Origin: Armatimonadota bacterium
Lineage (GTDB): Bacteria; Armatimonadota; Armatimonadia; Armatimonadales; Capsulimonadaceae
Assembly (NCBI GenBank): GCA_025354405.1
Contig: JANXMY010000150.1
Span: forward strand, 1-64,000
Direction of reading: 5' to 3'
Length of the DNA: 64,000 bases
Part shown: positions 11,720 to 51,189 of the stretch, in pieces
Layout: every line of letters begins with the position of its first letter
How positions within the stretch are numbered: the first letter of the stretch is position 1
Notes under the pieces: model-generated
The model's input: the letters and a program-made list of their open reading frames with translations, nothing else
Databases searched by the model: none
Told to the model about the DNA's origin: nothing
Position numbers and translations under genes: made by a program

Positions 11720-13591
11720 TTACTCCCGCATCTTCGGCATGGCTATGGGTTTGTTTGTCGGTTTGCCTGCAATCTTACCTTCCGTGATCTTGGACAGAGT
11801 TACTAGGGTATAGCCCTTCGCTCGCAGAGCGGCCACCAGGGCGGGGATAGAGGCGGTCGTGACATCTGGGCCGTTGTGCATCAAAACAATGGAGCCGGGG
11901 TGGACATGGCCCAGAACATAGTCGATCAGGCCGGAGGAAGAGCCGACGTCTTCGGCGTGCAGCACGTCCACGGTCCAGTACGCCAGTGAGAGGCCATACG
12001 AACGGGCGATTTTCTGGACACCGGCATTGGCATTGCCGCCGGGCGGGCGAAAGAAATGCGGAGAGCGTCCGGTCAGGGCACGGATTAGCACGCTGGTCCG
12101 CAAAATCTCCCCCTCTGCCACCGACGGAATCAACAGATTCATGTTTGGATGGGTGTACGAATGGTTCTCCACCTCATCCCCTCGTGCCGCCATGCGGTGC
12201 AAAATCTCCGAGACAGCTTCGGCGCGGGAGCCGACGACGAAGAAAGTGGCCGGGGCCTGGGCCTTGTCGAGTGCATCCAGCAGGGCAGGGGTTTTGAGCG
12301 GGTTCGGACCGTCGTCGAACGTCAGCGCGATTTCTTTGCGCGTCGTGTTTCCGGTCCAGTAGGCCGATGCGGGAGCGGCAAACAAGGTCTGGGCAAACTC
12401 CTGCCCATTCTTGTAGGCAGGGTCCAGCGCGGCGGCAATGGCCAGGTGTGCATCGGCACTGGTACGGTCTCCCTGCGCCAGCACGCTCTGCGCCAGTGTC
12501 CACTCAGCGACCTTCCAGGAGGGCCGCAGCTTCAGCAGGTTCCAGAGGCGTTCCCGGAGGGCGATTGCCTCAGGGCTGGTGTCGATCTGGTTTGTCAACG
12601 CTCCATTTTTATTGCTGACGCGAACGGTTAGTGTTTGTGTCGTCAAATCGTTGCCGGAGGCATCGACAGAGTCGATGCGGACCTGATGCGTTCCGTTGAC
12701 CACATGGGCGGTGTTCCAGGAGAATTCGTACGGAGACTGACTGACTACCGCCGCCATTTGTCCGTCCACCGTGTAGGAGACCAGAGCGGCACGGCGGGGG
12801 ATCACCTCTGAGGGAATCAGAGTCGCCATGCCGGAGCAAAGCAGCACGCTGCCCGCATGACGGGCGGTGTCGGTGACATCGCCCAGCAGCCGGTCAGCGT
12901 ACATCTGCTGCAAATCCGGCTCCACGACGCATGGCTCCAGCGGGCGGGCGGCATCAAACAAAGGCCGCAGACCATCTTCTTCGTGCAGCTTTGGAACGCC
13001 GCCGGGCGGGGTGAGCAGCTTTGCCAGCCGCCCGGAGAATATCTTGGAGTTCTTGCGGATTTCAGCCAAAGCCCCGATCTCCTCCCGCAGCGTGTCTCCC
13101 TCGTTTCCTGCTTTCTCCGCTCCGTCAAAATCACCCTTTAAAAATTTCACATAGGCCTGTGCCGTGGAGACATCTCTGCTCTGCGTTTCCGTCAGGTTGG
13201 GGGAAGCTGCCGCCTGGGTCCAGGCACTTGCTGCGGCCTCTACTTTTCGGCCAAAGAGGGCGCAAAGGGCCAGCCCGTACTGCGCCTCGGGATCGGGTGA
13301 GAGGGCCGCAGCATGGGCGAAATCTTTCTGGGCCCGACCGGTGCTGCCGACATAGAGTGCTGTCACCCCGCGCAGCTCGTAGGGCAAAGCCCGGTCCGGA
13401 TAGGCGGCAATCAGGCTTTGCGCGGCATCGATGGATTCCCCGTAGCGTCCTGTTTCCAGCAGATGCAGCGTCCAGCCCACCTGCGTGGTGTAGGCAGCTT
13501 TCAGGTCTTCCGCCTGAGAGGCCTGTCCCAGCAGGCTTGCCGCGCAAAGAGCCGCGGAAAGCGATACGATCATTTTTCGTCGAAAGTGCAT
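11720..13591 (-). CDS. Exported TPR protein with polysaccharide deacetylase domain
   Basis: A signal peptide (MIVSLSAALCAASLLGQASQA) opens this 623-residue protein. Residues 25-160 form TPR-like helical repeats. A middle region (about 260-330) includes a beta-rich, Ig-like segment (PYEFSWNTAHVVNGTHQVRIDSVD). The C-terminal third is a NodB deacetylase domain. It has LTFDDGP (catalytic Asp and metal Asp), HSYTHPN (metal histidines), RPPGG, and a final HNGPD. It probably removes acetyl groups from peptidoglycan or an exopolysaccharide. It lies 33 nt downstream of the FtsW-PBP fusion on the same strand, which favours a cell-wall substrate. TPR plus NodB is an unusual pairing. Confidence 0.85.
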   Translation of the reverse strand: MHFRRKMIVSLSAALCAASLLGQASQAEDLKAAYTTQVGWTLHLLETGRYGESIDAAQSLIAAYPDRALPYELRGVTALYVGSTGRAQKDFAHAAALSPDPEAQYGLALCALFGRKVEAAASAWTQAAASPNLTETQSRDVSTAQAYVKFLKGDFDGAEKAGNEGDTLREEIGALAEIRKNSKIFSGRLAKLLTPPGGVPKLHEEDGLRPLFDAARPLEPCVVEPDLQQMYADRLLGDVTDTARHAGSVLLCSGMATLIPSEVIPRRAALVSYTVDGQMAAVVSQSPYEFSWNTAHVVNGTHQVRIDSVDASGNDLTTQTLTVRVSNKNGALTNQIDTSPEAIALRERLWNLLKLRPSWKVAEWTLAQSVLAQGDRTSADAHLAIAAALDPAYKNGQEFAQTLFAAPASAYWTGNTTRKEIALTFDDGPNPLKTPALLDALDKAQAPATFFVVGSRAEAVSEILHRMAARGDEVENHSYTHPNMNLLIPSVAEGEILRTSVLIRALTGRSPHFFRPPGGNANAGVQKIARSYGLSLAYWTVDVLHAEDVGSSSGLIDYVLGHVHPGSIVLMHNGPDVTTASIPALVAALRAKGYTLVTLSKITEGKIAGKPTNKPIAMPKMRE

Positions 13592-13624: not shown

Positions 13625-16615
13625 TCAGTGCGCGAGTGCGGCCCGTATCATTTCGCGGCAGACGGGAGCGGCGGCAGCTCGGCCCGCCCCGCCATTTTCG
13701 ACGATACAGGCGAAGGCCAGGGTCGGGCTCTCCACCGGGGCAAACCCGGCGAACCAGGAGTGGGTCATGCCGTCGCCTCGCCCGTTCTGGGCACTTCCGG
13801 TCTTTCCGGCAACGCTGACGGGGAGGCCGTCGAAGACGCCTCGGGCGGTTCCATTGGTGACGACTGCCGCAAGCATCGCCTGAAGATGTCCTGCTCGCTC
13901 AGGCGTCAGGGCTTGCGTTCCGGAAGGCGCTTTGCCGATTTTGAGAAACGATACGGGGAGCAGCCGCCCGTTGTCTGCAGCTGCCTGAGCGACATGGCCC
14001 ATTTCCAGCGGCGTCACCAGCACTGCGCCCTGCCCGTAGGCGCAGTCTGGCAGGTCTTCGCCCAGCTTTTGCAGGGAGGGCAGGTGCAGCAGGCCAAACT
14101 CATTTCGGGCAGTCGCGTTTAAGTTTTCCGCTCCTATGGCAATTCCGAGGTGAGCGAAGTAGACATTACAGGAAACGCGCAGTGCTTTTGCCATATCCGT
14201 TTCGCCGTGGGGAACAAAGCCTTCTTCATCCGTGATGCGCCGCCGCGAGTACCGTTTCCCGAGTTTGTCTCGCCAGGCGACATTCGTGTCGAAATGGTGG
14301 CAGTCGAAGGTGTAGTTTCCTTGCCCGTGTGCCATACCTGCCGCGGCGGTGACGATCTTAAACGCCGATCCGGGCGGATACAGGCCGGAGACGGGGCGGT
14401 TGAATGCCGGGCCATCGGGCCGCGCCAAAATAGCTGCCCAGCTTTCCGAGGTCAGCGTCGCCGGGTCGAATGTCGGCAGGGACGCGAGGGCAAGTACCTC
14501 GCCGGTCCGGGCATCCAGAAGCACCGCCGCGCCTTTGTCCTTGCGCCGGCCGGTGCGACGGTCGCGCACGGCGGAAGCATACTTGTGCAGGGCATCAATG
14601 GCCGCTTGCTGCAAATTTTCGTCAATTGAAAGTGTCACCGCTTCGCCTTTCGGGTCTCGGTGCCAGAGCTGATGACGGTCCCGGTATGGTGAGAGCAGCT
14701 CGGCATAGGTGGTGAAGCCGCGCAGACGTGCATTCTGGCCAAGTGCATTCGATGGCCCCGCCGGACGCTCCACCGCGGCGACAAGCTGGGCACAGGCAGA
14801 CCCACCGGGGTAGACGCGTGGGCGACCGTCCGGGCAGAGCAGAGATGTTTGTCCCGGCATATCCTCCGAAGTCGGGTTCTGCGCCAGCAGCTTGCCGTTT
14901 CGGTCTTGAATCGCGCCGCGTGGGATAGAATTGGCATAGGCCAGCAGGCGCGGATTAACATGCGCAGGCAGCGGCTGCCCGGGAAGCGTATCCCGGTCAG
15001 GCGTTTTGAGAATCTTTGTGGCAAGTGCCTGGTCCTGTATTCCCTGAACTAGTGCTAACCGAAAGACGCCGATCCCGACGAGCAGATAGGCCGCGCAGCC
15101 TACCACCAGCAGGCGTCCGGCGCGGGTCCACTCGGGTGCGGCGCGGTCAGCGACTGCGGCGGGCAGCGTCTTTCCTGAAAGGTGCAACAACAGCCCAATG
15201 GCAAAGAAGTCGGCGACCAGGGAAGATGCGCCGAACGAGATAAAGGGCAGTGTGATCCCGGTCAGCGGGGTGAGGCCGGTGACCCCGCCCAGAATTATCA
15301 TGGTCTGGAGGCCCAAAAGCAGTGTGAGACCTGCCGCCAGCAGCCGGTCGAACTCGGTAACTGCTCGTCGCGCGATGTGCATGCCCCGTGCGATCAGCAG
15401 CGCGTAGACCGCCAGTACGATCAGCCCGCCGACGAGCCCAAGCTGTTCGCCAAGTGCCGCAAATACCGAGTCCGACCCGGCACGCGGCACAAACTCCGGT
15501 CCGCCCAGCCCCAGGCCGCTCCCCCAGAGACCGCCGGTTGCCAGGCCCCACAGGCCCTGCGCCAGCTGCGCCCCATTCTTATCGGCATTGTCCCAGGGAT
15601 GCATCCACATGACGACGCGGGTTGCAAAGAACCCGAAATGGAGGGCGTAGCCAACCACAGCCGCCAGCAGCAGCAGCCCTGTGCCGACGGCAGGATAGAT
15701 CAGCTTTCGCGTCGTCAAATACAGCAGAGCCAGAAACACGCCAAACAAGAGCACGGCGGGGCCGAGATCCTTCACCAATAAAAACAGTCCCAGGCAAAAC
15801 GCATACACGACCGCCAGCGGCAGGAAGTCTTTGATGCGGCTGACCACGCCGCGTTTTTCCGCGAGATAGGCGGCTACAAAGAGTACCAGCAGCAGCTTGA
15901 TGATCTCAATCGGCTCGAACCCGAATACTTGGATATGGATGCCCCCCGGTCCATGTCCCAGAACCAGCAGCAGGAGCATCAGGAAGATGGCACCCCCAGC
16001 ATAAGCATATTGATACCGGCGCAGGGGCAGCCGCCCAAAAGGACGTGTCAGAGGGAAAAGCAGGGCCAATAGTCCGTACAGGGCGACCCCCCAGACCTGC
16101 CCGGCAAAGACGAACGTATCTCGATAAGGGTCTTTAACGCTAAAGACCATCATCAGTCCCAGCCCGGAAAGCAGAGCGACAAACGGCAGCAGAAACGGAT
16201 CAGCAGTCGGAGCGGATTTTCGCAGGATAGCATGGGCCAGCCAGAATATCAGCAGAAACGCCGCTGTGCCGCCCCAGAACGCGCGCGCGACTTCGGAGGC
16301 TGTTCGCACGACGTAGTGGGCGTCGATCCCCGATGTCGGAATGTTCTCAATTGCCTTCGCATGACGCAGGCCGGAGACGGAGGCCCAAACTCGCCCGCGG
16401 TGCGCTTCACGCTCGGCGACGAGCTGCTTCGCGGTGTCTTTCCCGATAGCAAGCGACTGGGCAAACTGCGCCGCCGTTGCCGTGTTGATATTCATCGGCT
16501 GAGCAGGATAATCCGAAGTCGCCTGTTTGCCAAAAAAGACCAGTGTCAGACCCATCAGCAGAACAATCTGCACGGCGAGCAGCAGCAAAAACTCGGTTTT
16601 ACGGTTGTGTGTCAT
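13625..16615 (-). CDS. HhH - FtsW/RodA - penicillin-binding transpeptidase fusion
   Basis: The start ATG at 16615 is chosen because the longer frame runs into a repeat element. The 996-residue protein has a first membrane helix (8-28), then a ComEA-like helix-hairpin-helix segment (about 41-95: NINTATAAQFAQSLAIGKDT, EREAHR). A SEDS domain of about ten helices follows (112-480). It carries VKDLGPA with the Asp expected for glycosyltransferase activity, SDSVFAALGEQLG, and LPFISFGASS. The last ~440 residues are a class B transpeptidase: RGAIQDRNGKLLA, SxxK in PPGSAFK, SCN in RVSCNVYF, and KTGSAQ. It thus joins polymerase and cross-linker of peptidoglycan in one chain. It probably forms an operon with the deacetylase. 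Confidence 0.9.
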   Translation of the reverse strand: MTHNRKTEFLLLLAVQIVLLMGLTLVFFGKQATSDYPAQPMNINTATAAQFAQSLAIGKDTAKQLVAEREAHRGRVWASVSGLRHAKAIENIPTSGIDAHYVVRTASEVARAFWGGTAAFLLIFWLAHAILRKSAPTADPFLLPFVALLSGLGLMMVFSVKDPYRDTFVFAGQVWGVALYGLLALLFPLTRPFGRLPLRRYQYAYAGGAIFLMLLLLVLGHGPGGIHIQVFGFEPIEIIKLLLVLFVAAYLAEKRGVVSRIKDFLPLAVVYAFCLGLFLLVKDLGPAVLLFGVFLALLYLTTRKLIYPAVGTGLLLLAAVVGYALHFGFFATRVVMWMHPWDNADKNGAQLAQGLWGLATGGLWGSGLGLGGPEFVPRAGSDSVFAALGEQLGLVGGLIVLAVYALLIARGMHIARRAVTEFDRLLAAGLTLLLGLQTMIILGGVTGLTPLTGITLPFISFGASSLVADFFAIGLLLHLSGKTLPAAVADRAAPEWTRAGRLLVVGCAAYLLVGIGVFRLALVQGIQDQALATKILKTPDRDTLPGQPLPAHVNPRLLAYANSIPRGAIQDRNGKLLAQNPTSEDMPGQTSLLCPDGRPRVYPGGSACAQLVAAVERPAGPSNALGQNARLRGFTTYAELLSPYRDRHQLWHRDPKGEAVTLSIDENLQQAAIDALHKYASAVRDRRTGRRKDKGAAVLLDARTGEVLALASLPTFDPATLTSESWAAILARPDGPAFNRPVSGLYPPGSAFKIVTAAAGMAHGQGNYTFDCHHFDTNVAWRDKLGKRYSRRRITDEEGFVPHGETDMAKALRVSCNVYFAHLGIAIGAENLNATARNEFGLLHLPSLQKLGEDLPDCAYGQGAVLVTPLEMGHVAQAAADNGRLLPVSFLKIGKAPSGTQALTPERAGHLQAMLAAVVTNGTARGVFDGLPVSVAGKTGSAQNGRGDGMTHSWFAGFAPVESPTLAFACIVENGGAGRAAAAPVCREMIRAALAH

Positions 16616-16628
16616 AAGAATGTAGTAG

Positions 16629-16670
16629 CCCGTGAGTGAAAGCCCGTGAGTGAAAGCCCGTGAGTGATAA
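16629..16670. repeat. 14-bp tandem repeat, three copies
   Basis: Three head-to-tail copies of CCCGTGAGTGAAAG (the last ending TAA in place of AAG) sit between the FtsW-PBP start and the palindromic element. Noncoding. Confidence 0.85.
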
Positions 16671-16814
16671 ATTCCGAGTGGTTGAAAACCACTCGCTAGG
16701 TGAGGCACCCTCCGGGTGTAAAGAAAGCAGATCCAATGGCTGCTCTGCTTCTTCGCCCGAATCCGTCGTCCAGAGGACGCCTTACCTAGCGAGTGGTTTT
16801 CAACCACTCGGAAT
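16671..16814. repeat. Palindromic element with perfect 30-bp terminal inverted repeats (copy 1)
   Basis: Arms 16671-16700 and 16785-16814 are perfect inverted repeats. Each arm itself folds as a hairpin (CGAGTGGTT, loop GAA, AACCACTCG). The interior has two more hairpins: CACCC/GGGTG near 16705-16719 and GTCC/GGAC near 16768-16777. A second copy lies at 51051-51189. No transposase is present, so it would have to be mobilised in trans. Confidence 0.85.
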
Positions 16815-16844
16815 CTGTCTCGGAATCTGTCTCGGAATCTGTCT
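16809..16844. repeat. 12-bp tandem repeat, three copies
   Basis: Three exact copies of CGGAATCTGTCT follow the right arm of the palindromic element and overlap its last six bases. Confidence 0.85.
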
Positions 16845-16881
16845 CCTGCTCGGTCTGGGCACGTCTATTATACCTGCGGGG

Positions 16882-16887
16882 TACAAT
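16882..16887 (+). promoter_or_regulatory. -10-like box six bases before the luxE-like ATG
   Basis: TACAAT ends six bases before the ATG at 16894 and no Shine-Dalgarno sequence is present. Transcription would begin at or near the A of the start codon, giving a leaderless mRNA. The same spacing occurs at 57555-57567. No clear -35 box is visible. Confidence 0.5.
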
Positions 16888-16893
16888 AGACAG

Positions 16894-17919
16894 ATGAAAG
16901 ATGCCCTGATCCGGCAGATCGCCGATTTTATTACATCCAGCCCCGTGCATACTAGCGATGACATATTTGAGGCACTGGCTCTTCAACTGTTCGCCCGGCA
17001 GTATGCGCTTGTCGCCCCCTATCGTCGTTTGTGCGACGCCAGTGGAGCGACGCCGGACACCCTATTCCGCTGGCAGGATATTCCAGCAGTCCCTGCCGCC
17101 GCTTTTAAGGCCTTTGATCTCTCTGCGGTGCCGCTCTCCGACAGCAAGGCCGTCTTTCACTCGTCGGGCACGACCGGGGCGGAGGCCAGCCGGCACTACT
17201 TCGACGCCGACGGCTTAACGCTGTACGAAACTAGCCTGCGTGTTGGCTTCCGCGATGCGCTGCCCGATTGCCCGCCTCATCTCTGGGCGCTCATGCCGAA
17301 CCCAGAGGCGGCTCCGAATTCGTCTCTTTCGCATATGCTGGGCACACTCCGTGCAGAGCGTTTCTTTTGGGAGGCCGATGATGCACTCGCCGGGACATTA
17401 AAAAAACTCACGGAGCCGGTTACTCTCTTCGGCACGGCCTTTGCATTCGTTCAGCTCTTCGACGGCACCCTTGCCAGCTGGCGGATGCCGCAGGGGAGTG
17501 TCGTCATCGAGACTGGCGGCTTCAAAGGCCGCTCACGCGAAGTCCCGCGGGAGGAGCTCTATGGCCTCTTCGGAACGCGGCTGGGTGTGCCGCTGACAAA
17601 TTGCCACAGTGAATATGGCATGTCTGAAATGGCTTCCCAGTTTTATGGCCGCGGACTGGATTCGGAGAAGCGCGGCCCACACTGGGTCCGCACCCGCACG
17701 ATTGATCCGCTGACCGGCGAAGACTCGTTACCCGGGACACCTGGGCTGCTGCGGCACTACGACCTGGCAAACTGGAATTCGGTCCAGGCTTTGCAGACGC
17801 AGGATTTAGGGACCTTGACCCCGTCCGGGTTCCTCCTGCATGGACGCGCGCCAAGTGCCGAGGTGCGCGGCTGCTCTTTGACGGTGGAAGAACTATGGAC
17901 ATCACGGTCGGCGAGCTAG
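16894..17919 (+). CDS. LuxE-like acyl-protein synthetase
   Basis: This 341-residue protein belongs to the LuxE/adenylating family. It has the nucleotide loop SSGTTG (near residue 94), ETGGFKGRSREV, and NCHSEYGMSEMASQF. In luminous bacteria LuxE activates a fatty acid with ATP and passes it to the reductase LuxC. The frame is open upstream into the repeat element, but the ATG at 16894 matches the family start and follows a TACAAT box by six bases. The last 25 nt overlap the LuxC-like gene, so the two are surely made together. No luxA or luxB is nearby. A role in making a long-chain aldehyde for another purpose is likely. Confidence 0.85.
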   Translation: MKDALIRQIADFITSSPVHTSDDIFEALALQLFARQYALVAPYRRLCDASGATPDTLFRWQDIPAVPAAAFKAFDLSAVPLSDSKAVFHSSGTTGAEASRHYFDADGLTLYETSLRVGFRDALPDCPPHLWALMPNPEAAPNSSLSHMLGTLRAERFFWEADDALAGTLKKLTEPVTLFGTAFAFVQLFDGTLASWRMPQGSVVIETGGFKGRSREVPREELYGLFGTRLGVPLTNCHSEYGMSEMASQFYGRGLDSEKRGPHWVRTRTIDPLTGEDSLPGTPGLLRHYDLANWNSVQALQTQDLGTLTPSGFLLHGRAPSAEVRGCSLTVEELWTSRSAS

Positions 17920-19103
17920 AAAGCGCGATCTGTCGACTACGGCAGACGCATTTGGAGACCCTGACGCCTCTGCGGCAAGTGGGGGTTGTCTCTGCGCTGT
18001 CCGTGCTTGCCCAGCGCTGGCGCGATCCGTCGTACGAGCTGCGGCGGCAGGCGGAGCTGATCACCGATCCATTTCCATTCGCGATGGTCGAAGTCAGTCT
18101 GAACGCCCTGCTGGACTCGCTGACCCCTGAGCGCCTCTGGGCCTTGATCGACAGCGAAGAGATGCGCGGAGTTTCGGGCTGCCCCGTGATCGGCCATGTG
18201 ATCGCGGGGAATACGCCGCTCCTGAGCTGGGTGAGTATCATCCGGGCCCTGCTCGTCGGCAGCGGGTCCCTGGTCAAGCTGCCCTCCGGCGCGGCGTCCG
18301 TCTGGGGGCATCTTTTTCATCAGTCGCTCTTTGACGTTTCGCCGAAGCTGGCCGAGTGCGTGACGATATTTGAGTGGCCTGGGGGTACGGCGGATCTCGA
18401 TGCCGCGCTTTGCGCCTCGGCCGATTTAATTATAGCCCACGGCAGTGACGCGACCCTGCGCTCGCTGGGAGCGTATTGTCCGGGCAGAACGCCATTTATT
18501 GGCTATGGACACCGAGTTTCTTTCGGACTGGTGACGACGGGTAGTGGGAGTGCCGAGGCCGCAGCTGGTTTTGCCCGGGACATTCTGCTCTACGATCAGG
18601 GCGGCTGCCTATCTCCGCAGACGATTTTCGTCGAGGGGGACTGGTCGGAAACGATCCATTTTGCCGCCGGTCTGGCAGAAGCTCTTGCCTTGACCGTGCC
18701 CCTGTATCCCCTGCCGACACGCGCGGCTTCGGCGGCTTCGGCCGTGCGTGAGGCCCGCCTGCTGGCCTCGATGGAGGAGGGTACCCGGCTGTGGGGGGAT
18801 GAAGCCCTCCGCTGGACTGTGATCGCTCGGACGCAGCGCGAATTTGTCCCCTCACCAACATTTGGGATAATCTCCGTACAGTCCCTGGAAACGCTGGCCG
18901 ATCTGCCGGAAGCGATCGCCCTGGTGTCCGCATTTTTGCAGGGGTGCGCGGTTGCCGGTGACGAACAGGATTACATTCCCAACGTTTCCTATTTGTGCGC
19001 TCCCGGCGAAATGCAGACCCCGCCCCTCCACTGGCGGCAGGATGGGCGGGATGTTCTGCGCTTGCTACCGGGCAGAAGGCAGCACGAAAATTTTCGTCTC
19101 TGA
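17895..19103 (+). CDS. LuxC-like acyl-CoA/acyl-protein reductase
   Basis: This is a 402-residue member of the LuxC family. These enzymes take the acyl group onto a cysteine and reduce it to an aldehyde with NADPH. The expected active-site context is present: YDQGGCLSPQTIFVEG, with Cys near residue 237. The cofactor-side region GNTPLLSWVSIIRALLVGSGSLVKLPS is also conserved. It overlaps the luxE-like gene by 25 nt. Together they form a fatty-acid-to-aldehyde module. Its 3' end overlaps the convergent metallo-hydrolase gene by 39 nt. Product use (wax, lipid or pigment) is unknown. Confidence 0.88.
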   Translation: MDITVGELESAICRLRQTHLETLTPLRQVGVVSALSVLAQRWRDPSYELRRQAELITDPFPFAMVEVSLNALLDSLTPERLWALIDSEEMRGVSGCPVIGHVIAGNTPLLSWVSIIRALLVGSGSLVKLPSGAASVWGHLFHQSLFDVSPKLAECVTIFEWPGGTADLDAALCASADLIIAHGSDATLRSLGAYCPGRTPFIGYGHRVSFGLVTTGSGSAEAAAGFARDILLYDQGGCLSPQTIFVEGDWSETIHFAAGLAEALALTVPLYPLPTRAASAASAVREARLLASMEEGTRLWGDEALRWTVIARTQREFVPSPTFGIISVQSLETLADLPEAIALVSAFLQGCAVAGDEQDYIPNVSYLCAPGEMQTPPLHWRQDGRDVLRLLPGRRQHENFRL

Positions 19104-20520: not shown

Positions 20521-20799
20521 ATGTACGACCGGAATGAAAATCAGAGCTCAGGTGGCGGGATCGGCTTTACGGCAGCAGTAGTCGGAGTGATCCTGGGGGC
20601 TGCCGCGTTTCTGCTGAATACCAAACAGGGCAAACAGATCCTGGAACAGGTGGGTATTCGGGCCGACGATTGGAAAGCCCAGGCGGCCGCCACCCTTGCC
20701 GAGACACGCGAGAAAGTAGTCAGCTCTGTCGAAGCTGAAACACCTCCCTCAAGCGATTCCCCCGACGGCCCAGGTCCCCAGGTTCGTCAAAATCTTTAG
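20521..20799 (+). CDS. YtxH-like single-pass membrane protein
   Basis: This 92-residue protein has a glycine-rich start and one membrane segment (GIGFTAAVVGVILGAAAFLL). The NTKQGKQIL basic stretch follows, then an amphipathic helix and a low-complexity Pro/Ser tail. This is the layout of YtxH/general stress proteins, where GxxxGxxxxxLxxPxxGKxxR is typical. Function is not established in the family. Its last 4 nt overlap the end of the convergent transporter gene. Confidence 0.65.
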   Translation: MYDRNENQSSGGGIGFTAAVVGVILGAAAFLLNTKQGKQILEQVGIRADDWKAQAAATLAETREKVVSSVEAETPPSSDSPDGPGPQVRQNL

Positions 20800-22076
20800 T
20801 GCTTGACCAGAAATGTCAGCCACAATGTCACTGCCGCGGCCAGCAAGGTCAGCGGCGTGACGACCATTCCCACTTTAAAGAAATCCAGACCGCGTATCTC
20901 TTCGCCCTTCTTTCGGGCTGTCGTCAGAACCAGCATCGTCGCCAGTGACCCGAAGAGCGTCAAATTCGGCCCAATATTTGTGCCCAGCAGCGCACTGTAA
21001 ACCAGCGGCGGCCCGGCATGCGCCGTTTTCAGGACTCCCTGCGCCAGCAATGCGGCCGGGATGTTGTTGACGATATTTGAGGCCAGGCCCGCCCCCCCGG
21101 CGGTCGCCAGAATGGCAGTGAGATTGTTTCCCCCTGAAGTTTCCAGCCAGTGCACTGCCGATCCTCCCATCCCTAAATTCTCCACACCGCGTACCAGCAC
21201 GAATAGGCCGATGACGAAGGGGAACAGCGACCAGGCAACCTCGCGCAAAACTCCAGCCTCGACTTGCCTTGTGTGCAGGCCCCAGAACACCATCAAGACA
21301 CACCCGGCGAACCCGATGGTATACGGCGGCAGGTGCACGAACGGCGCGGCGAAGTAGCCCAGAAGTACTAAGACCAAAATTACTATGGCGCCCGCGAAAT
21401 ATCTTCGGTGCGGAACGACTGACAGCGGCTCCGGCAGGGCCGCCAGGTCGAAACGCTCCGGAAGCTGGGCTCGGAACAGAAATCGAAAACAGGCATAGTT
21501 GACGACCAGCGCGGCGATCTGCGGCAGTGCCATCCGGGCGACAAAACCGCTGAACGGCAGGTGAAAGGCCTCCGTAAAGAGCAGGTTGGTTAAATTGCTG
21601 ACGGGGAGCAGGAGGGACGCCGTGTTGGCGACGAAAGCGCAGGCGAAGACATAGGGCCGGGCGGGGACTTTGAGGCGTGTGACAAATGCCAGGGTGAGCG
21701 GCGTCAGGATAACCGCGGTGGTATCAAGCGAAAGCGCAGCCGTGATGACGGTGCCGAGCAGGAAAACGTTCCGAAATAGCCGCCGGGCATCTCCCTTTGC
21801 CGCTTGGGCAGCACAGATCGCCGCCCATTCGAAAAAGCCACTTTTCTCCAGCAGGGCGGAGAGCAGCAGCAGGGCCAGCAGAAACAGCAGGACATCTTTT
21901 CCGGCCCATATCACCCCCCAAGCAGCCCCCGGCGAAACCAGGCCCGTGACCAGCAGCACGCCGGCCCCACCCATAGTCCACCAGGCTTCGTTCCAGCCCC
22001 GTGGGCGTATCAGCACGCCTCCGAGCGCGGCGGTAAACACCAAAAGTGTCAGGGCAACCCTCAAGGTCTCCGTCAC
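20796..22076 (-). CDS. ArsB/NhaD-type ion transporter
   Basis: The start is GTG at 22076, which overlaps the kinase stop as GTGA, a strong sign of coupling; the frame upstream is kinase antisense-phase sequence. The 426-residue protein has about eleven membrane segments. It carries the ArsB-like patterns LLSALLEKSGFFEWAAICAAQAA, TTAVILTPLTLAFVTRL and LLPVSNLTNLLF. Family members extrude arsenite or exchange sodium and organic ions. No ars regulator or reductase is near, so the ion is not decided. Coupling to a Ser/Thr kinase is unusual for this family and suggests phospho-control. Confidence 0.8.
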   Translation of the reverse strand: MTETLRVALTLLVFTAALGGVLIRPRGWNEAWWTMGGAGVLLVTGLVSPGAAWGVIWAGKDVLLFLLALLLLSALLEKSGFFEWAAICAAQAAKGDARRLFRNVFLLGTVITAALSLDTTAVILTPLTLAFVTRLKVPARPYVFACAFVANTASLLLPVSNLTNLLFTEAFHLPFSGFVARMALPQIAALVVNYACFRFLFRAQLPERFDLAALPEPLSVVPHRRYFAGAIVILVLVLLGYFAAPFVHLPPYTIGFAGCVLMVFWGLHTRQVEAGVLREVAWSLFPFVIGLFVLVRGVENLGMGGSAVHWLETSGGNNLTAILATAGGAGLASNIVNNIPAALLAQGVLKTAHAGPPLVYSALLGTNIGPNLTLFGSLATMLVLTTARKKGEEIRGLDFFKVGMVVTPLTLLAAAVTLWLTFLVKH

Positions 22077-23701
22077 GAATGACGGCCCAGCTTCGATATA
22101 ACGAAATCCAGTGCAGAGATTACGCGAATCGAAATCGGGACTGAGAGCGACTGCCGACCGCGGGTGCGGATCGACACGACTGCCGGGTAGATCCCTGGGG
22201 GCAGCGCTGCCGTAGAAATTGCGACCGTAATCGTGAATGTTTGGCCTGCCTCCACTGTCCCTTCCCGTGGGGAAACGCATAAGCCCTCCAGCGGCTTTCC
22301 AACACCGCCGGTGATCGTCTCCATGGTCTGGATCGCCTCGAAATCAATCGGCATCTCCCCAACATTTTTGAGATGCAGTGTGCCCGAGATACTCTGGCCT
22401 TTGCGCCCGCTGAAAACCAGAGGAGCTGGCGGTGATCCTTCCTGCTCGGTCACTTTGAGCAGTCCCGGAGACGGCTGCAGGGTGACACTGCATTCTACTG
22501 ACCATCGGTCACTGGCAACGACGTTTCCCTCGGAATCTTCCTGGCCATCACTGCTGATCTCCAGCTTCCCCGTCAGGGCTTTACCACGCTCTTTTGTCTT
22601 TGCTGGGTCGATCGATACCGTGACCTCATGAGTGTTGCCCACGAAGCGGTGCGCGGAGACGACGATCCAGGGGGCGCGAGACTTAACCTCCCCGCGGATC
22701 TCGCCGCCACCGGCATTGTAGAGCTTCACGGTCATCGGTGGGATGATCTGTCCGGAATTCACATTGCCGAACCAGAGGTTCTTGCGGTTAATCAGCAGTA
22801 CCGGCGGGGCGATCTCACGCAGATCCTCCAAAAACTCTCCCGCATTGGCGTAGCGATGGTCGGTATTGTAAGAAATTGCCCGATTAATTAATTTCACCAG
22901 GCCAAGGTCGGCGTTCGGGCGATGGGTCAGCGAACTGGTCACATACATGGAGCGCTGATTGATCTGCTCCTGGTCCGGGGGAACACCAGCAATCATCTCA
23001 TACAGAATACAGCCCAGCGCGAAAATATCTGTGCGGATATCCGCGATCCACTGCCCGTCCGCTTCCAGCTCCGGGGGCAGGTAGCCTTCCGTGCCATACA
23101 GCTCGACTGGTTTGTCGTGTTCATGTCCGGCTCCAAAGTACTGCGCCGCCCCGAAATCCAGCAGTACCAGATGTCCCTGCGGCGTAATCCGAATATTGGC
23201 CGGCTTCAGATCATGATGTATGATCTGGCGAGAATGCAAAAATGCCAGGGCGTCACAAAGGCTGACAGACCACTTTAAAATCCATTCGCGGGGTAAGGGG
23301 TGACGACGCAGGATGATGGCGTCGAGCGTGGTGCCGACAATAAACTCCTGCGCAATATAGAAGTTTCCATCATTCTGAAATGCTTCATAGAATGTCGGCA
23401 TCAGCGGGTGCGAGCTGGCCTGCATCCCCACCATGCGCTCCCGATCGAAGAGTGCCTGCAGAGGGGCCTGATCGCGAGGGTGACGTGCCGGAAAGAATTC
23501 TTTTAATGCAATCTGCCGACTAGGCATATTGATATCGCGGGCGATGTAGACGGCTCCATAGGCACCTGTTCCCACAATGCTCTCAATGGTATAGTGTGTG
23601 TGGTGGCTGGGAACATCTTCACCTGGTGCCAGCAGCATCACATCATCATATCGCTTCCGCTTCGCCAAACTCGGTGCCTTTCGGCCCGCAGGCCTTGACA
23701 A
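22073..23701 (-). CDS. Soluble Ser/Thr protein kinase with C-terminal beta domains
   Basis: The start is TTG at 23701. Residues 37-300 are a Hanks-type kinase. The glycine loop GTGAYGAVY and the lysine in QIALKEFFP are present. The catalytic loop reads HHDLKPANIR, with His in place of the usual Arg before Asp (a non-RD kinase), followed by DFGAAQ and GTEGYLPPE. Residues 310-540 form two Ig-like or BACON-like beta domains (NLWFGNVNSGQ, APWIVVSAHRF; GTLHLKNVGEMPIDF). No membrane segment is seen, unlike PknB. Its stop overlaps the transporter start, so the two are co-translated. The kinase may control that transporter. Confidence 0.88.
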   Translation of the reverse strand: MSRPAGRKAPSLAKRKRYDDVMLLAPGEDVPSHHTHYTIESIVGTGAYGAVYIARDINMPSRQIALKEFFPARHPRDQAPLQALFDRERMVGMQASSHPLMPTFYEAFQNDGNFYIAQEFIVGTTLDAIILRRHPLPREWILKWSVSLCDALAFLHSRQIIHHDLKPANIRITPQGHLVLLDFGAAQYFGAGHEHDKPVELYGTEGYLPPELEADGQWIADIRTDIFALGCILYEMIAGVPPDQEQINQRSMYVTSSLTHRPNADLGLVKLINRAISYNTDHRYANAGEFLEDLREIAPPVLLINRKNLWFGNVNSGQIIPPMTVKLYNAGGGEIRGEVKSRAPWIVVSAHRFVGNTHEVTVSIDPAKTKERGKALTGKLEISSDGQEDSEGNVVASDRWSVECSVTLQPSPGLLKVTEQEGSPPAPLVFSGRKGQSISGTLHLKNVGEMPIDFEAIQTMETITGGVGKPLEGLCVSPREGTVEAGQTFTITVAISTAALPPGIYPAVVSIRTRGRQSLSVPISIRVISALDFVISKLGRHS

Positions 23702-51013: not shown

Positions 51014-51050
51014 GTGTATGAACCGAAAGCAAGCGAGACCGAGCGAGATC

Positions 51051-51189
51051 GTCCGAGTGGTTCCAAACCACTCGCTAGTCGTCCGAGTGGTTGAAAACCA
51101 CTCGCTAGGTAAGGCACCCTCCGGGTGTCGGAGTCCGAATCTGACGTCCGCAGGACGCTTCACCTAGCGAGTGACTTTCAGTCACTCGT
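51051..51189. repeat. Palindromic element with CGAGTGGTT hairpins (copy 2)
   Basis: Three hairpin units are present: 51055-51075 and 51084-51104 (tandem left arms) and 51167-51187 (right arm). The core between them shares the CACCC/GGGTG and GTCC/GGAC hairpins with copy 1 at 16671-16814. The right arm hairpin reads CGAGTGACT, loop TTC, AGTCACTCG, whereas copy 1 reads CGAGTGGTT and AACCACTCG. Both sides of the stem changed together, so pairing is kept. Confidence 0.85.

Follow-up and report, generated by a model that had tools for sequence, protein, structure and literature searches.

At positions 16615..13625 on the minus strand of the window (the whole 64,000-nucleotide stretch analyzed, from an Armatimonadota bacterium) lies one intact, uninterrupted open reading frame that encodes a fused protein of 996 amino acids (Table 1). 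The protein begins with a first transmembrane helix (TM1), which is followed by a helix-hairpin-helix (HhH) segment on the extracytoplasmic side and then by TM2; a SEDS core of ten TMs comes next, and the chain ends with the membrane anchor of the PBP and a transpeptidase of class B. Pfam models matched FTSW_RODA_SPOVE at residues 143-480 (E 2e-59) and Transpeptidase at residues 695-990 (E 1e-43), while the HHH_3 match at residues 40-72 reached 17.3 bits, which is under the 27-bit cut-off. The domain search suggested in an earlier note on this DNA, made from the sequence alone, was therefore strong for the two enzymatic domains and fell short for HHH_3 in the window protein taken by itself, in which one HhH unit is clear and the second is degenerate.

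Hydropathy analysis predicted 13 membrane helices with the N terminus inside, which puts the transpeptidase outside together with both the HhH loop and the catalytic loop of SEDS; this predicted topology is what a working fusion would need. An AlphaFold model of the whole fusion had a mean pLDDT of 84 and a pTM of 0.78, with the SEDS and PBP parts modeled well. A longer frame of 1060 amino acids, starting at 16807, was rejected as spurious since it crosses a palindromic repeat element.

Table 1. Features of the fused gene and of its surroundings.
Feature	Position	Strand	Details and basis
Fused HhH-SEDS-class B PBP gene	13625..16615	-	996 aa, ATG at 16615; start matches the conserved N-termini of homologues
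TM1, residues 9-27	16535..16591	-	Hydropathy; AlphaFold model helix 4-35
HhH_3-type segment, residues 40-98	16322..16498	-	Inside an 85-aa extracytoplasmic loop (28-112); profiles and topology
TM2, residues 113-131	16223..16279	-	Hydropathy
SEDS glycosyltransferase core, residues 139-482	15170..16201	-	Ten TMs; Pfam, hydropathy, AlphaFold
SEDS catalytic Asp D382	15470..15472	-	Large extracytoplasmic loop; invariant in homologues, motif equivalence
PBP membrane anchor, residues 502-520	15056..15112	-	Hydropathy
PBP pedestal (PbpA-type dimerization region), residues 550-694	14534..14968	-	PBP_dimer_2 in 8/14 homologues
Transpeptidase domain, residues 695-990	13646..14533	-	Pfam; 3upp (M. tuberculosis PbpA) is the top Foldseek match
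SxxK motif S750-K753	14357..14368	-	Homologue alignment
SxN motif S815-N817	14165..14173	-	Homologue alignment
KTG motif K938-G940	13796..13804	-	Homologue alignment
Ser/Thr protein kinase	22073..23701	-	5.5 kb upstream of the fusion, same strand; likewise close to the fusion in genome G002
Loci with an upstream PfkB-type kinase			L148, L163, L165, L166, L169, L171, L174, L177, L185, L187, L189, L192, L193

Several other elements surround the gene. The repeat element, about 140 bp long with inverted arms CCGAGTGGTTGAAAACCACTCG, occupies 16664-16827 between the fusion and a LuxE-like gene and recurs at 51039-51188; dozens of copies are present genome-wide (120 partial or full matches). Genes for a LuxE-like acyl-protein synthetase and a LuxC-like acyl-CoA reductase (window 16660-19103) are divergent from the fusion and adjoin it in several genomes of the same family. 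On the other side, a polysaccharide deacetylase with TPR and Ig-like regions (11720-13591) starts 33 bp past the fusion stop on the same strand; this is possibly a wall-modifying enzyme co-transcribed with the fusion, and it is not kept there in relatives.

Both halves of the protein carry the hallmarks of their enzyme classes. The SEDS half has the FTSW_RODA_SPOVE domain, ten TMs, and a catalytic Asp in the large extracytoplasmic loop, and the PBP half has the SxxK, SxN, and KTG motifs of a class B PBP, a single N-terminal anchor, and no Transgly domain. In an alignment of 14 fused homologues, D382, S750, K753, S815, N817, and K938-T939-G940 were invariant, so that the earlier proposal of a SEDS protein and a class B PBP on one chain with intact motifs holds. 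By motif, we take D382 to be equivalent to D262 of E. coli RodA and D297 of FtsW. Activity is lost in the RodA D262A mutant (PMC6207328). Artificial RodA-PBP2 fusions work both in vivo and in vitro (PMC6207328; PMC10449877), which makes the fused architecture compatible with function, and from its sequence the natural fusion would be enzymatically active. The protein has diverged from the curated families, scoring 209.8 against a cut-off of 337.5 for the NCBIfam ftsW equivalog and 157.4 against 336.7 for rodA, and as it lies under every FtsW, RodA, and PBP2 equivalog cut-off we file it as SEDS rather than as FtsW or RodA. This divergence is what one would expect of a catalytically reduced protein serving mainly as a scaffold or a beta-lactam sensor, but such a reading is very improbable when every known catalytic residue of both halves is invariant.

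SEDS and PBP genes are adjacent and almost overlapping in many bacteria, and one unfused pair occurs in the same phylum (L200), which is the situation in which an assembly or sequencing error could join two neighboring genes. Using the linker-pedestal region as the query, we found strong relatives in 51 of 291 Armatimonadota genomes, distributed over six families. Uninterrupted fused frames, roughly 900-1250 codons in length, are found across the family and order of the window and also in other families of the phylum; no complete copy among the relatives is split, and those short frames that were fetched are truncated at the ends of contigs. A cultured organism, Chthonomonas calidirosea T49 (L148, genome G039), likewise has the fusion together with the HhH segment, on a closed chromosome. 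Since intact fused frames recur in dozens of independently assembled genomes, the frameshift that the earlier note had named as a possible refutation was not borne out, an artefact of sequencing or assembly was rejected as having a negligible probability, and the fusion itself is near certain.

The same note had proposed looking for stand-alone ftsW and rodA, and both are present in the genome. FtsW and an FtsI-like PBP are encoded in a division and wall cluster with murD and murF, and the genome also has genes for RodA, PBP2, and PBP1A; FtsW, RodA, PBP2, and PBP1A exceed their own NCBIfam cut-offs. This rules out the fusion as a replacement for a missing FtsW or RodA. Because separate FtsW, FtsI-like, RodA, and PBP2 proteins exist, the fusion is an additional, third SEDS/class B PBP synthase, presumably with a non-redundant role.

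Which known pair the fusion corresponds to is indicated by its relatives. Among solved structures, the PBP half is closest to M. tuberculosis PbpA (by phmmer, and by Foldseek with 3upp as the best hit); Foldseek also matched a transpeptidase domain of E. lenta (4mnr), and 8 of the 14 homologues carry the PBP_dimer_2 pedestal of the PbpA type. On the contigs of the named relatives, the SEDS and PBP genes are separate and adjacent in Actinobacteria, Firmicutes, and Chloroflexi, and fused into single genes in Coriobacteriia and Acidobacteriota. An FHA/PP2C/RodA/PbpA/kinase cluster is known from mycobacteria (PMC6554272). We found the order FHA, PP2C, SEDS, PBP, kinase in Actinobacteria, PP2C, kinase, fusion in Acidobacteriota (L048), and fusion, FHA, PP2C, kinase in two Armatimonadota genomes (L152 and L157). 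Taking the PbpA-type relatives and pedestal together with these FHA, PP2C, and kinase neighbors, there is a strong case that the window protein is a fused orthologue of the actinobacterial RodA-PbpA pair of the pstP/pknB cluster, whose neighbors are FHA, PP2C, and PASTA-type kinase genes. The fusion shares with that pair (M. tuberculosis PbpA 3upp, 3un7) its SEDS and PBP subfamilies and gene order, and the FHA/PP2C/kinase neighbors of the pair also stand beside some fused relatives; it differs in being one chain with an HhH insertion and, in the genome of the window, in having a dispersed cluster.

The window locus itself has no FHA/PP2C cluster and only a kinase 5.5 kb away, which may be what is left of the ancestral FHA-PP2C-RodA-PbpA-kinase cluster and may be functionally linked to the fusion. 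The kinase frame is overlapped by about 208 bases by an ArsB-like transporter frame on the same strand (20796-22280), and one start codon of the two was probably mis-called. In two families, f9 and f24, a gene for a PfkB-type kinase precedes the fusion on its own strand (loci in Table 1), joined in most cases by one for a TatA-like protein.

A FastTree phylogeny of concatenated SEDS and PBP parts groups the fusions of Armatimonadota and Acidobacteriota in a single clade with a local support of 1.0, and the Coriobacteriia fusions in a separate clade nested near Actinobacteria. Two further fused branches (L194/L195 and L196) fall elsewhere, one of them beside the unfused same-phylum pair L200. 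The tree was rooted at the midpoint and so does not prove the direction of change; its branches indicate that the SEDS-PBP fusion arose more than once, from a RodA-PbpA gene pair. The natural fusions of Coriobacteriia are likewise a single frame with SEDS followed by PBP and the same junction topology, but unlike the Armatimonadota fusion they have a short loop without HhH.

The HhH segment is better supported in the family than in the window protein. HHH_3 matched 11 of the 14 fused homologues, above the cut-off in several of them and with a best E value of 1.9e-8. A profile built from 22 HhH segments of the family and compared with the PDB matched EEPD1 (9yi2, 5e-22), ComEA (8dss, 2e-10), GspK (5vtm, 3e-9), and Tex (6e-9), and because of these matches the homology to HhH_3 domains is firm at the family level. 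Together with the predicted topology, this bears out the earlier placing of an extracytoplasmic HhH segment between helix 1 and the SEDS core. Structure prediction was less informative: in the full AlphaFold model, the pLDDT was 40-63 over the HhH segment, where the alignment was shallow (the window and related loci only), and a single-sequence model of isolated residues 38-112 was poor, giving one long helix with a pLDDT of 68 and a pTM of 0.33. By the family profile, the segment is present in 35 of the 48 main-clade fusions with a complete N terminus, as a tandem duplicate in some fusions, and absent from the other 13 (ten of them in family f5; some f9 members also lack it). As family f5 and a few others do without it, the domain is not essential for the fused enzyme. 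The positions that define the fold are kept (N in 36/39, R in 39/40, and an aromatic residue in 40/40), and conservation outside them is low. Plain Pfam detected no HHH_3 in the N-termini of two Acidobacteriota fusions (L048 and L092), whose N-terminal loop resembles by eye a degenerate HhH (NLNT ... LPNVGALARL).

The earlier note had called the segment ComEA-like. As regards ancestry this stands, since the fusion HhH shares with that of ComEA the fold signature N-x-N-x-A ... R ... F and the profile match to 8dss, but the DNA-contacting glycines of the hairpins are lost and the hairpin looks like the one in GspK units. Hairpin glycine 2 occurs in 2 of 40 fusion HhH units versus 27 of 28 in ComEA-type proteins of the phylum, and the second hairpin glycine in none of the 40 versus 26 of the 28. 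The 40 units are related rather than independent, and one control among the 28 was extracted wrongly, which, if it biases the control values at all, makes them too low. The pair of GxG hairpins, one per unit, that characterizes DNA binding by ComEA is thus missing from the fusions, as are the basic residues after the second hairpin. In the GspK proteins of the phylum, the hairpins of the HHH_3 units are altered in a similar way, and the HhH/SAM-like units of GspK (type II secretion protein K) are, like the fusion HhH, extracytoplasmic and of the HhH_3 type without the canonical GxG hairpin; the family profile matches GspK 5vtm. The likeness ends with these units, as GspK is a pseudopilin and the fusion has no pilin features: T2SSK (PF03934) scored 16.5 bits against a cut-off of 24.2 in the window protein, and T2SSK_1st gave no match.

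Given the loss of the hairpin glycines and the parallel departure of the GspK units, binding of DNA by the fusion HhH is unlikely, and a protein- or wall-binding role is more likely. An HhH that binds DNA outside the membrane, as in ComEA, could tie wall synthesis to DNA uptake or to extracellular DNA, and the shared Pfam family (HHH_3) and the profile matches to solved ComEA structures are what such a domain would give. We nevertheless consider this improbable: besides the hairpin glycines and basic residues that have gone, the genome encodes a separate SLBB+HhH ComEA-like protein of its own. A further difference from ComEA is that the fusion HhH is attached to a synthase rather than to a DNA receptor.

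We therefore favor, as the probable reading, a single-chain bifunctional peptidoglycan synthase that would operate beside the canonical FtsW/FtsI-like and RodA/PBP2 pairs with the HhH as a docking domain. The SEDS part would polymerize lipid II into a strand, to be crosslinked by the class B PBP tethered to it, with the covalent link fixing a one-to-one stoichiometry and the choice of partner. The HhH, in the loop between two extra N-terminal helices, would be an HhH_3 scaffold turned to new use as a protein interface of the GspK kind; its most likely role would be to dock either an envelope protein or the wall, and thereby to localize or switch on the synthase. MreC and FtsQLB act in this way for RodA/PBP2 and FtsW/FtsI, respectively. 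The genes neighboring the fusion include no obvious HhH partner; docking is a reasoned guess, and the ligand and effect of the domain are proposed by analogy.

Alternatively, the HhH could be a mere structural spacer, or a membrane-proximal lid over the SEDS/PBP interface, that has no ligand, leaving the fusion an ordinary RodA-PbpA synthase. Its loss from f5 and some f9 members that retain the enzyme would fit, as would the scant conservation beyond the fold positions. We regard this as somewhat unlikely, because the segment is kept in most of the complete proteins across several families, is duplicated in some, and has its place taken by another interaction domain in one independent fusion. 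That protein (L196:8820-12122, minus strand, genome G041) is a SEDS-PBP fusion whose corresponding loop contains a TonB_C domain (E 2e-9, above the cut-off), and its gene adjoins PP2C and kinase genes; a wider search found the TonB_C variant in one genome only. Because L196 carries TonB_C there, the loop between the extra N-terminal helices would seem to be an insertion site for extracytoplasmic interaction domains. Extending the docking reading, we tentatively suggest that the loop may be a plug-in input site of SEDS-PBP synthases, holding HhH in Armatimonadota (perhaps in degenerate form in Acidobacteriota) and once TonB_C, whose modules could recruit or allosterically switch on the synthase and so replace or add to separate activators.

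The fusion itself is not new: SEDS-PBP fusions in a single open reading frame have been stated to exist (PMC10449877), and there are the Coriobacteriia and Acidobacteriota examples. The new part is the HhH domain, which is kept across much of Armatimonadota and appears to be undescribed; the literature searched, which gives partial coverage, held no description of an HhH-bearing SEDS-PBP fusion. Since the synthase has both its crosslinker and a candidate input domain on its own chain, the open question of how extracytoplasmic partners activate SEDS polymerases becomes testable with one purified protein, and the presence of the fusion in the cultured and sequenced C. calidirosea helps to make it so.
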